49,157 nt of DNA from positions 1-49,157 of the forward strand of contig JAGCFU010000076.1 in the NCBI GenBank assembly GCA_017649945.1. The letters run 5' to 3'. The position numbers and the translations under genes were made by a program. The number at the start of each line of letters is the position of its first letter. Within the stretch, counting starts at the first letter, position 1. Of this stretch, positions 21,360 to 44,961 are shown in pieces. A model generated the notes under the pieces. That model had not been told where the DNA came from, ran no database searches, and saw only the letters and a program-made list of their open reading frames with translations. The DNA comes from Bacteroidales bacterium. GTDB taxonomy: Bacteria > Bacteroidota > Bacteroidia > Bacteroidales > F082.

Positions 21360-21427
21360 TTAGCCATTAGCTATTAGCCATTAGCTATTAGCTATTAGCC
21401 GTTAGCTATTAGCCATTAGCCGTTAGT
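21360..21427. repeat. TTAGCCATTAGC tandem repeat between tRNA-Arg and tmRNA
   Basis: About six degenerate units of TTAGCCATTAGC / TTAGCTATTAGC fill the whole 68-nt gap downstream of tmRNA and upstream of tRNA-Arg on the minus strand. The same sequence family occurs, partly inverted, at 25982-26092. Confidence 0.8.
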
Positions 21428-23918: not shown

Positions 23919-23993
23919 GGAAGCTTAGCTCAGTTGGTTCAGAGCGCCTGCCTTACAAGCAGGAGGTCGCTGGTTCGAACCCAGCAGTTTCCA
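23919..23993 (+). tRNA. tRNA-Val (anticodon TAC)
   Basis: A 75-nt cloverleaf: acceptor GGAAGCT/AGTTTCC with one G-U pair, anticodon stem CCTGC/GCAGG with loop CTTACAA giving TAC, T arm GCTGGTTCGAACCCAGC, discriminator A, CCA not encoded. Its last eight bases (23986-23993) are the beginning of the long palindrome that terminates the operon. Confidence 0.95.
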
Positions 23994-24035
23994 CAAAAAA
24001 AGGACTCCAATTGGAGTCCTTTTTTTGTGGAAACT
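23986..24035. terminator. 50-bp perfect palindrome: terminator overlapping the tRNA-Val 3' end
   Basis: Bases 23986-24010 are exactly the reverse complement of 24011-24035. The core AGGACTCCAA/TTGGAGTCCT flanked by A7 and T7 is a textbook bidirectional terminator, serving the tRNA operon and the convergent T9SS gene whose TAG is at 24034-24036. The perfect pairing extends past it through CCAC/GTGG into AGTTT/AAACT, so the outer arm includes the whole 3' acceptor strand of tRNA-Val. Confidence 0.9.
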
Positions 24036-25981: not shown

Positions 25982-26092
25982 TAGCCATTAATAAAAAAGC
26001 CATTAGCCATTAGAAATTAACAAATACAGCTAATCCTAATGGCTAATGGCTAATGGCTAATACCTAATGGCTAATACCTAATGGCTAACGGC
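25982..26092. repeat. TAGCCATTAG/CTAATGGCTA repeat cluster with 16-bp inverted arms
   Basis: AGCCATTAGCCATTAG (25998-26013) is the exact reverse complement of CTAATGGCTAATGGCT (26036-26051), leaving a 22-nt spacer. The right side continues with four more CTAATGGCTAA / CTAATACCTAA units up to the stop codon of the MFS gene. It is the same family as 21360-21427. It may act as a 3' structure for the MFS transcript. Confidence 0.8.
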
Positions 26093-27709
26093 TTAAGCCT
26101 TGATATTAGGCTCTTCCAAGCCAAGGTGTTTCTTCTTGTCAACAACCTTGAGGTAGAGGCCGATGAGCAATGCTGCGATGCCGAGGCAAGCCAGCATGAT
26201 GAGAGCCCACTTGTAATCAAGTGCTAACGGGTCGGTCACTCCTTCGTTGGTTCTGTCGAGAACCTTACCGATGAGCAATGGGAACAGCCACAGACCGATG
26301 TTCTGAATCCAGAATATCAAAGCGTAAGCTGAACCGATAATCTTCTCGTCGACGAGCTTCGGAACGCTTGGCCACAAAGCTGCAGGCACCAATGAGAATG
26401 ATGCTCCTAAGACCAAGATTGTCACGTAAGCCACAATGGTACCGCCGGCTGCGTTGCCTTTGAAAACAGGCAGGATGAATGCGAATGTGAGGTGGCAGAT
26501 GACCAACAGGATGGAACCGATCATCAACATTGAAGCGGCTTTACCTTTGTGGTCGACGTAGTTGCCGAGGATAGGAGTGATAGCCACTGCGAGGAGTGGG
26601 AACACAGCGAAGATTGTTTCAGCTGTGCCACGCATGTAACCCATGTAGCAGTAAACTACAAGAGCCACTACTGCCAATCCCATCAAACCGTATTTCATGG
26701 CTTTGTTTGTCTTGATGAAGTTGCTTGCGAATGAGCAGATAGCGACGAGCAGCATCACGACGTACTGTACGATAGTCACTGAGTTGCTTGCCCAGAATCC
26801 TGTACCAGGGTTGAGGGTGAGGTTGCACTGCAGCATGTTGACAGCGTATTTCTGGAATGGGAAGATTGCTGAATAGTAAAGCACGCAGAGCAATGCCACG
26901 AGCCAGAATCCGAGACTTGACAAAATCTTGCCGATATCGCTGATTTTGAACGGGTCGTCTTTCTCTTCAGCCTCGCCGGTCTGAGCGTCGAGTTTCTTAT
27001 CCATGAAGAAGTAAACAACGAACATGATGAGGGCGATGCAGAGAAGCACCACACCAAATGCCACTGAACGGCTCACGTTGATTGTTTCACCGAGTTTTGC
27101 GAAATAAGGTGAGAAAATCATACATGTGGCGACGCCGAGACGTGCCAATGCCATCTCAGAACCCATTGCCAATGCTGTTTCACGGCCTTTGAACCATTTC
27201 ACGATACCGCGGCTGACAGTGATACCTGCCATCTCAGCGCCACATCCAAAAATCATGAAGCCGATGCCTGCCACCTTTGCTGATGCCGGCATGCCTCTAT
27301 AGAACGGAGAGACACCTAATTCCTCAAAGAGAGGGATGTAGTTGAGGTTGTCGTTGAACCACAGCTCAGCGCCGCTACCGCCGAAATTCTCGTGGATGGC
27401 GTAATACTTGATGAGTCCGCCGACGAGCATCACAGCGCCTGATAAAACCGCTGTGAAACGCACGCCCATCTTGTCGAGGATGATACCTGCGAAGATGAGG
27501 AAGAACACGAAGACGTTGAGGAATGTCTCAGAACCCTGCATGGTGCCGAATGCCGAGCTATCCCAACCGCGGTGAGTCTGCATCAAGTCTTTGATAGGGG
27601 ACAAGATGTCCATGAAAATGTAGGCGCAGAACATCGCCAACGCCAACAGCAGCAAAGCAGTCCATCTCATGGCCGCATTGTCGCGTAAAGTCTGAATTTT
27701 TTCTGTCAT
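26093..27709 (-). CDS. Major facilitator superfamily transporter (MFSD1-like)
   Basis: This 538-residue inner-membrane protein has about 12 hydrophobic helices. The N-terminal part RWTALLLLALAMFCAYIFMDILSP, then GWDSSAFGTMQGSETFLNVF and FAGIILDKMGVRFTAVLSG (the last being the MFS loop 2-3 motif), resembles the MFSD1-like branch. A charged cytoplasmic loop (DKKLDAQTGEAEEKDD) splits the halves. The substrate is not evident; small peptides or organic anions are possible. It starts 30 nt after the M16 protease stop, in a spacer made of AACTTTTAACTATAAACTTT-like repeats, so it may be the last gene of the rsmG-M16 operon. Confidence 0.8.
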   Translation of the reverse strand: MTEKIQTLRDNAAMRWTALLLLALAMFCAYIFMDILSPIKDLMQTHRGWDSSAFGTMQGSETFLNVFVFFLIFAGIILDKMGVRFTAVLSGAVMLVGGLIKYYAIHENFGGSGAELWFNDNLNYIPLFEELGVSPFYRGMPASAKVAGIGFMIFGCGAEMAGITVSRGIVKWFKGRETALAMGSEMALARLGVATCMIFSPYFAKLGETINVSRSVAFGVVLLCIALIMFVVYFFMDKKLDAQTGEAEEKDDPFKISDIGKILSSLGFWLVALLCVLYYSAIFPFQKYAVNMLQCNLTLNPGTGFWASNSVTIVQYVVMLLVAICSFASNFIKTNKAMKYGLMGLAVVALVVYCYMGYMRGTAETIFAVFPLLAVAITPILGNYVDHKGKAASMLMIGSILLVICHLTFAFILPVFKGNAAGGTIVAYVTILVLGASFSLVPAALWPSVPKLVDEKIIGSAYALIFWIQNIGLWLFPLLIGKVLDRTNEGVTDPLALDYKWALIMLACLGIAALLIGLYLKVVDKKKHLGLEEPNIKA

Positions 27710-43876: not shown

Positions 43877-44961
43877 ACTATATTCACTTCCGGATTGATT
43901 TCAATTCCGAACTTTTCCTTCACGGAATCTTGTATTTTTTTCATCAAATCAAGGATTTCCTGTGGTTTGCCGCCACCATAGTGAACCAAAACCAGCGCTT
44001 GCTTGTCCCAAACGCCGACATGGCTCTCACGGTAGCCTTTCCATCCGGCTTTGTCGATGAGCCATCCAGATGGGATTTTTACAAAAGCGGAGTCAGTCGG
44101 ATAACTCGGAATATTGTCATAACACTCTTTTAATTCCAAAAATTTCTCATTCGTCACTATCGCATTCTGGAAAAAACTGCCGACACTGCCAATGACACTG
44201 ACTTCAGGCAATTTCTCTGCTCGAATCGCTTTTACTGTTGCTGCCACATCTTGCAATGTCGGACTGGTTATGTTATTGCTAATCAGATAATTGCGAATGT
44301 TTCCGTAATCCAACTTCAATTCACCGTGTTTCTTTAAAATAAAATCCACCGCGAAAATCATGTACAAGGCATGCCATGTACCTCCGGGTAATGATTTGTC
44401 ATCCCGTTGGGACAACGCATGCGTTGTCCTTTGGGAAATCAATTCCTTAAAAACCGAATTCCGATATGAAAAATGGCATTCTTCATTGCAGAAAACCTTG
44501 GTTTTACCCGAAACCAAATCAATCGTATGTACCTGATAAATCGCGTCTTTCACTTCTGCACCGTATGCCCCGATGTTTTGAACAGGCGCCGCCCCGACTT
44601 TTCCAGGGATGTCGGACAAGTTCTCCAACCTATAGAGCTTTCTGGAAACGGTGTAATCGACGAAATCTTTCCACACCTCGCCACAATAACAGCGAATTTT
44701 AACTGTCTTATCGGTTTCTTCAAGTGTCTCAATTCCTTTCAGATTCGGATAAACCACAAAGCCGTCATAAAACTCATCAGAGAAAAGGATGTTGCTGCCG
44801 CCGCTTAATATTAGAATACGTGACGCGTCTCTACATTCAATAAATTTAGGATTGCGTGTCAATTCATGTATATCATCCATTGATTTTAATTCCTGAAAAT
44901 ATCTTGCTTTAACGTCAAATCCAAAGGTGTTGAGCTCGCGCAACGAAAAGTTTTTCTCCAT
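43873..44961 (-). CDS. murB: UDP-N-acetylenolpyruvoylglucosamine reductase MurB, with insertion
   Basis: MurB reduces the enolpyruvyl group to make UDP-N-acetylmuramate, an essential peptidoglycan step in the cytosol, with FAD and NADPH. The 362-residue protein has [25 protein letters not shown] (FAD), [29 protein letters not shown] and [11 protein letters not shown] (catalytic Ser in GSFF) with a C-terminal EINPEVNIV. Between YRNSVFKEL and IFAVDFIL there are about 20 extra residues (around 177-199, with TTHAL and TWHAL) encoded by two palindromic DNA units. The ATG at 44961 is used; one six codons upstream exists. The -7 box TATTTTTG is at 44984-44977. Confidence 0.92.
44362..44429. repeat. 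Paired palindromic units inside murB
   Basis: GGACAACGCATGCGTTGTCC (44410-44429) is a perfect 20-bp palindrome. GTACAAGGCATGCCATGTAC (44362-44381) is a palindrome with one mismatched pair. In the coding direction they read ACAACGCATGCGTTGTCC and ACATGGCATGCCTTGTAC, matching at 13 of 18 bases and encoding TTHALS and TWHALY. They are 48 bp apart and in frame. Confidence 0.8.

Follow-up and report, generated by a model that had tools for sequence, protein, structure and literature searches.

The window, by which we mean the whole 49,157-nucleotide stretch of Bacteroidales DNA that was analysed, carries a murB gene that holds, in frame, a palindromic doublet resembling a REPIN (Table 1). The original prediction had claimed a perfect and a near-perfect palindrome at this place, together with about 20 residues more than expected; both palindromes are there, inside the open gene, and the protein has some 23 extra residues compared with sister species that carry no insert. 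The accompanying claim, that two copies of a palindromic element make up the insertion, stood with respect to the two in-frame units, but the feature is larger than described, because the doublet also includes the linker between them.

Table 1. Coordinates, within the window, of the murB gene and the parts of its insert.
Feature	Position	Strand	Remarks
Host gene murB (UDP-N-acetylenolpyruvoylglucosamine reductase), 362 aa	43873..44961	-	Pfam FAD_binding_4 + MurB_C
68-bp palindromic doublet, REPIN-like, in frame in murB	44362..44429	-	encodes ~23 residues
Unit 1, perfect 20-bp palindrome GGACAACGCATGCGTTGTCC	44410..44429		
Unit 2, near-perfect palindrome GTACAAGGCATGCCATGTAC, one mispaired position	44362..44381		
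28-bp linker between the murB units	44382..44409	-	

The insert comes after YRNSVFK, a motif whose Tyr-Arg belongs to the active site in E. coli MurB. Counted from FK to AVDF, the stretch is 35 residues long, compared with 12–14 in 27 of 45 genomes of the same genus. Alignment to the best solved MurB (7orz) leaves 22 residues of the insert stretch unmatched and marks the site as length-variable across solved structures; the loop would probably lie at the protein surface, and the enzyme is expected to work normally. The palindromes are translated on the minus strand as TTHAL and TWHAL. Unit 1, whose two flanks are GTTG and TTTG, is the single match to GGACAACGCATGCGTTGTCC within three mismatches in the window, and 100 dinucleotide shuffles produced no such match. 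Unit 2 is a perfect palindrome in four orthologues (G026, G011, G142 and G076). The ends of the linker seem to retain traces of the paired inner feet found in other doublets (CAAC.GGAT … ATCC.GTTG), pairing at five of ten positions here and at nine of ten in G005, and in all seven murB doublets the unit starts are 48 bp apart. The MurB of RUG11952 (L075, 5184–6512) has, in addition to the doublet, two further in-frame inserts elsewhere, of 9 and 17 residues, and a 6-residue difference after the doublet.

Matches to murB at E values up to 1e-60 were obtained in 46 of 99 genomes of the genus; 45 were classed, G105 being left out, and the repeat classes, here and at prmC and tilS, were assigned by eye. 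The doublet is present in seven of the 45 and a single unit in one, L075 and L263 being counted once (the loop sequence of G076 is that of RUG11952). In this comparison with relatives, which the original prediction had proposed as a check, the residues are missing from 27 of the 45, which have nothing at the site; eight further genomes of the genus likewise have murB without an insert. The remainder hold other repeats: a different palindrome (GGACGCGGCGTGCCACGTCC) in one, a GTTTGGA-/GTATGGA-type minisatellite in three and a GAGTTAAAAGTTAA-type repeat in six. The MurB site thus takes several unrelated repeat families, which goes beyond the original interpretation, itself supported in kind. An assembly artefact was considered as the source of the doublet and judged unlikely, since separate genomes (G026, G011, G142, G076, G005 and G132) share it. 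Neither a target-site duplication nor an exact empty site was definable at murB, where the net gains are 60, 69, 72 and 87 bp, and divergence among the compared relatives is too high to fix the exact boundaries of the insertion.

The unit is dispersed. In the window genome (1.98 Mb in 92 contigs, 84% complete), 15 sites lie within three mismatches of GGACAACGCATGCGTTGTCC and 20 within three mismatches of the commoner core GGACAAGGCATGCCTTGTCC, several of them in frame in other genes, and the reversed control gave no site in either case. Neither of the outcomes named beforehand as grounds for abandoning the original prediction, namely the same residues in close relatives with non-palindromic DNA, or a genome with no other copy of either palindrome, turned up. 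Perfect palindromes of at least 18 bp number ten in 377 kb of the window genome, six being members of the family or variants, against five in one first-order resample; this sample, comprising the window and 20 further stretches, is enriched, because 16 of the stretches come from contigs already known to match. Across 13 genomes of the genus there are 1–34 sites per genome within three mismatches. Exact cores occur in 5 of 60 genomes, the window genome included, all of the same genus, and a draw of 394 other genomes from the phylum contained none. At least 116 stretches of a named collection contain them, and the 80 loci listed from it include gut Bacteroidales, Saprospiraceae, Algoriphagus, one Spirochaetes metagenome-assembled genome (11 loci), Anaerolineae and WOR-3. 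The taxonomic distribution of the core is patchy. GTAG and CTAC together flank 36 of 57 copies outside gut Bacteroidales; among exact cores in gut Bacteroidales both feet are present in 0 of 24, one in 10 and neither in 14, and in the window genome both are exact, as judged by eye, at 4 of the 15 sites.

Many copies are inside genes. By a mechanical rule that stands apart from annotation (an open frame of at least 120 codons, with at least 40 on each side), nine of the 15 window-genome sites are in long frames, in seven distinct genes with murB counted twice, and 21 of 29 sites are so placed in regions of four relatives of the same genus; the rule scored one site (L358) as inside although its sequence matches a locus (L004) read as intergenic in the window genome. 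Random positions of the same loci score 0.77 and 0.78, respectively. In the named collection, the gut Bacteroidales have 12 of 24 sites inside frames (random 0.71), one in the third frame, compared with 10 of 57 elsewhere (random 0.73; P = 0.005), a split made from record titles, with sites having too little flank left out and with many sites sharing a genome. Pooling the genus sets gives 30 of 44 against the same 10 of 57, with a nominal P of 4e-7, which must be read knowing that the sites are not independent and that eight of the 20 relative regions were picked as doublets or clusters.

The reading frames are used unequally: 20 of the 30 in-frame genus-set sites are read as DKACLV, ten as TRHALS and none in the third frame, which runs into the TAG of the GTAG foot. 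Because the 20-bp core is stop-free in all frames on both strands, and two of three frames (TRHALS or DKACLV) stay open with GTAG attached, a copy that adds a net number of bases divisible by three can persist wherever the protein accepts extra residues. The in-frame hosts, by their Pfam matches, are murB, PrmC_N with MTS, PP-loop with TilS_C, Alpha_L_fucos, HHH_3, and N6_Mtase with TaqI_C, so that in-frame insertion into conserved genes, the behaviour of the Rickettsia palindromic elements, is found here as well. In each of six host proteins of the window genome that were scanned against Pfam the insert is outside the best domain matches, a descriptive count that carries no chance comparison: between FAD_binding_4 and MurB_C in MurB; between PrmC_N (12–81) and MTS (from 125) in PrmC, where a weaker match to FtsJ (109–280) spans the site; between PP-loop (to 196) and TilS_C (from 351) in TilS; after the domain (to 281) in the fucosidase; just before HHH_3 (from 127) in the HHH protein; and between N6_Mtase (to 316) and TaqI_C (from 420) in the DNA methylase. 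One of the host genes, palindrome included, is present on two contigs of the window genome (L003 and L009), perhaps through assembly redundancy.

The arms of the palindrome covary. Among 82 core sites from six genomes (the other seven of the 13 contribute none), 39 stem pairs are compensated, compared with a mean of 1.5 and a maximum of 7 in 2000 random placements; the sites were gathered under a mismatch limit, which biases against compensated changes, and copies shared by descent enter the count more than once. One variant, T-A at pair 4, makes up 19 of the 39 and may have arisen once, and when only the 32 distinct variants are taken 19 compensated pairs remain. The outer eight pairs show 39 compensated and 19 uncompensated changes and the central two 0 and 16 (P = 6e-7), and in the seven murB orthologues three of the six variable pairs are compensated and three are not. 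Arm covariation with a freely varying centre is a hairpin signature. A double-stranded binding site for a protein was set aside as the reason for the symmetry, because the uncompensated changes gather at the centre.

Doublets are also found away from murB. Ten, at 45–61 bp from start to start, occur in other genes, at intergenic sites and in relatives, typically with linker ends CAAC.GGAT and ATCC.GTTG, and two looser pairs of units are spaced at 75 and 99 bp. They have the REPIN arrangement of two inverted units and a spacer in one hairpin, the orientation being given by the inner feet alone since the units are themselves palindromes. At murB, the doublet folds as one long hairpin in all seven orthologues, at −28 to −35 kcal/mol (values computed without a shuffle control). 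Selection for a regulatory hairpin in the mRNA, with in-frame coding as a by-product, would account for this fold and for the covariation, which fits an RNA stem, but we consider it very improbable, given that 27 of the 45 genomes of the genus do without the insert and that others hold unrelated repeats in its place.

The covariation also bears on a different explanation, in which local mutation alone, by template switching between the arms, keeps the palindromes perfect, and recombination of gene segments, rather than transposition, spreads them. Template switching homogenizes the arms of inverted repeats, as an excerpt of PMC8604942 states, and arms that covary around a free centre, as well as the one central change shared by both tilS units of G111, are what such a process would give. 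It does not explain, however, why a single genome has this core at several unrelated places or why distant phyla have it too, and we regard it as unlikely.

The original prediction drew its parallel with the Rickettsia palindromic elements, which are inserted in frame in conserved proteins, tolerated by the enzyme tested, and 105–146 bp long (PMC2229807, in the excerpt consulted). The parallel holds for behaviour, both being palindromic repeats that are translated in frame as part of conserved proteins, but not for anatomy: the units here are of 20–40 bp, the doublets are near 68 bp and the sequence is another, and hairpins of this size, doublets and GTAG feet place the element nearer to REPs and REPINs. 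Excerpts of PMC3733652 describe GTAG-tagged REPs as hairpins, single or as dimers 20–100 bp apart, with complementary stem changes and some copies within genes; in two Xanthomonas species, recB holds different REPs at nearly one position. The present family shares single and dimeric hairpins, stem covariation, intragenic copies and different repeats at one gene site with them, but its host belongs to the Bacteroidetes and its copies are often in genes, whereas the same excerpts give GTAG repeats for Proteobacteria, Cyanobacteria, Chloroflexi and PVC, CGTC-tagged repeats for Bacteroidetes, and a mostly intergenic location. Also close are the double-foot REPs of TnpAREP subclass 2.4 (RAYT group 4), which, in the part of PMC6006769 that treats them, are bounded by GT[AG]G and C[TC]AC, are abundant in Bacteroidetes and include in-frame insertions within tnpA itself; the GTAG…CTAC ends on many copies, the G-C pairs (GGG/CCC) at the foot of the stem, the Bacteroidetes hosts and the in-frame copies here all agree with that description. 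Unlike them, the murB-type family has few copies, here mostly inside genes, with both feet exact in none of the 24 gut Bacteroidales cores and at 4 of the 15 window-genome sites, and a subclass 2.4 transposase was not found in the genomes checked.

A true REP/REPIN family, whose subclass 2.4 REP-associated tyrosine transposase has since been lost or lies in unassembled parts, would fit these ends, dimers, complementary stem changes and intragenic copies (PMC6006769 and PMC3733652, as excerpted), and we give it somewhat less than an even chance. In one palindrome-bearing genome (L211), an IS200-like Y1_Tnp gene has degenerate look-alikes of the palindrome, CGGGACAAGCCGTGCCATGTCCCTACAG and CGGGACAAGGCGTGCTTTATCC, at distances of about 0.8 and 0.3 kb, and GGACAA/TTGTCC words surround another Y1_Tnp gene (L198). 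Against it, Pfam Y1_Tnp has no match in seven bearing genomes: the window genome, at 84% completeness, G005, G015, G017, G063, G073 and G142, of which G063 is 99% complete and has 18 palindrome sites. In six more the matches are of other types by motif or are short, reading YIK[RK]QKEHH in G026, G111, G117 and G132 and being short in G011 and G076; Y---Q--HH is the signature of subclass 1.2 in the PMC6006769 excerpt. Outside the genus draw, 16 of 21 genomes reached through named loci have Y1_Tnp matches, and the exact palindrome is present at one of the 30 such loci listed, some 1.3 kb from the gene; at 30 same-genus Y1_Tnp loci it is not among the palindromes listed. A resident REP transposase was accordingly rejected as a candidate, the motifs read among the loci listed being mostly IS200-like (YIxNQ), YIK[RK]QKEHH or short. 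A few Y1_Tnp genes of other species, for example those at L206, L216, L217 and L219, show RAYT-like motifs (YxxNP or YVLLNP), and two of these (L206 and L217) have their own flanking hairpin repeats, distinct from the murB-type palindrome.

The palindrome is thus short, capable of forming a hairpin and dispersed in several copies, as a REP is, but its copy number is not the high one of REPs, usually above 100 per genome in the excerpt of PMC2817692, and no class-2 Y1 transposase (RAYT) with this palindrome at its flanks was found in the genomes checked, so either the partner enzyme has been lost, or these genomes never had it, or an enzyme of a different type is the partner. Because the bearing genomes checked have no REP-type transposase and the copies are few, we call the palindrome REP-like rather than a proven REP.

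Other conserved genes show the same diversity at one site. For prmC, matched in 79 of 99 genomes of the genus, 29 of the 30 loci listed were classed: four have the murB family, one this family together with a second palindrome family (GTAGAGACGATGTGCACATCGTC type), two the second family, one a minisatellite with a second-family-like repeat, two a third palindrome, four a CGTCATTTCGACCGAAGCG element, two part of that element, 11 minisatellite-like repeats (some loosely so) and two other or unclear sequences; a clearly empty site was not seen among these 29 listed loci. For tilS, matched in 89 of 99, 22 of the 30 loci listed were taken: the doublet is present in five (one much decayed), a single unit in two, a TTAATGCC minisatellite in five, an AAACTTC-type repeat in two and a GTCATTGCGACCGGAGCG element in two, with no clear insert in two and four unclassed. 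A second tilS site, before the HHADD motif, also varies among relatives (L364–L383), some of which have ISTERSEWRNL-type inserts there, perhaps the read-through of the CGTCATTTCGA element. This element looks like a repeat common in Bacteroidetes and may be connected with the CGTC-tagged repeats that PMC3733652 reports from them.

We placed the murB states on a tree of 29 genomes built from murB, prmC and, where present, tilS, with the murB and prmC inserts removed; G132 is absent from it and G135 is on a long branch. The doublet, in six rows, requires six changes, at least four of them forced by supported branches, compared with a mean of 5.6 when labels are shuffled; all murB labels together require 11 against 12.2, the label 'none' is somewhat clustered (seven against 9.7), and genomes of the GAGTTAAAAG type group together as a single clade. 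G011 and G063 group together (support 87/84) yet differ at murB. The doublet is as scattered on this three-gene tree as a shuffled label, which fits loss, gain or gene exchange alike; the random-like scatter is also what the spread of gene segments by recombination would give. Between two relatives that are 87% identical over 303 kb, different repeats occupy many shared intergenic places and small repeats found in one are missing from the other, for example a 52-bp segment that contains a GTGCAAGGCATGCCTTGCAC palindrome. In G011 (L242–L261) the second palindrome family (GTAGAGACGCACGGCCGTGCGTCTCTAC) has many copies in 400 kb; no member of at least 18 bp was found in the 377-kb sample of the window genome.

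Taking these results together, we favour, at a probability of about three in four, the view that murB took up a doublet from a family of short REP-like repeats, which form hairpins and were mobile within a single clade of this genus of gut Bacteroidales; the doublet landed in a tolerant stretch of the gene and has since been kept, altered or lost. The copies would have moved by transposition, and the murB doublet would have arrived in frame in an ancestor of some of the species, its later fate differing from one to another. The arms may have stayed complementary because the unit is copied or recognized as a hairpin, or because template switching from arm to arm repairs mismatches.

Palindromic selfish DNA in proteins is already known from Rickettsia and from some REP-rich bacteria; the present case adds gut Bacteroidales hosts, doublets in housekeeping enzymes, and the presence of different repeat families at one site in sister species. 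Exact-string literature searches with the core, the encoded peptides, the second family and the peptide of another repeat found no paper, and a literature search found none that by its title concerned palindromic elements of Bacteroidales. The turnover of several families at fixed protein sites is the point most worth following. Nature has here repeated one experiment several times, showing how mobile DNA is turned into protein sequence and where it is tolerated, and the empty murB sites of sister species serve as controls. We tentatively suggest, as an idea we do not yet favour, that a few sites between enzyme domains (the MurB site, the PrmC linker and the two TilS sites) are recurrent exchange ports, where unrelated short repeats enter, leave and replace one another without breaking the frame, at roughly the pace at which species diverge. 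A targeted mechanism might bring them there, or these sites might be the only refuges besides intergenic gaps; if so, selfish DNA would be continuously rewriting stretches of essential proteins. There is also a warning for annotation: TRHALS, DKACLVPT and similar peptides come from reading through repeats.

At two loci (L012 and L047) the palindrome is read into an apparent signal peptide (HALSLLILLFLCVSA in L012) and may supply part of a secretion signal. The window itself has tandem arrays of about seven bases (TTAGCCATTAGC and CTAATGG) at 21360–21426 and 26035–26102, of the same general kind as the minisatellites in prmC and murB of relatives, and, at 23986–24035, a perfect palindrome of 50 bp that contains runs of A and T and is probably a two-way terminator.
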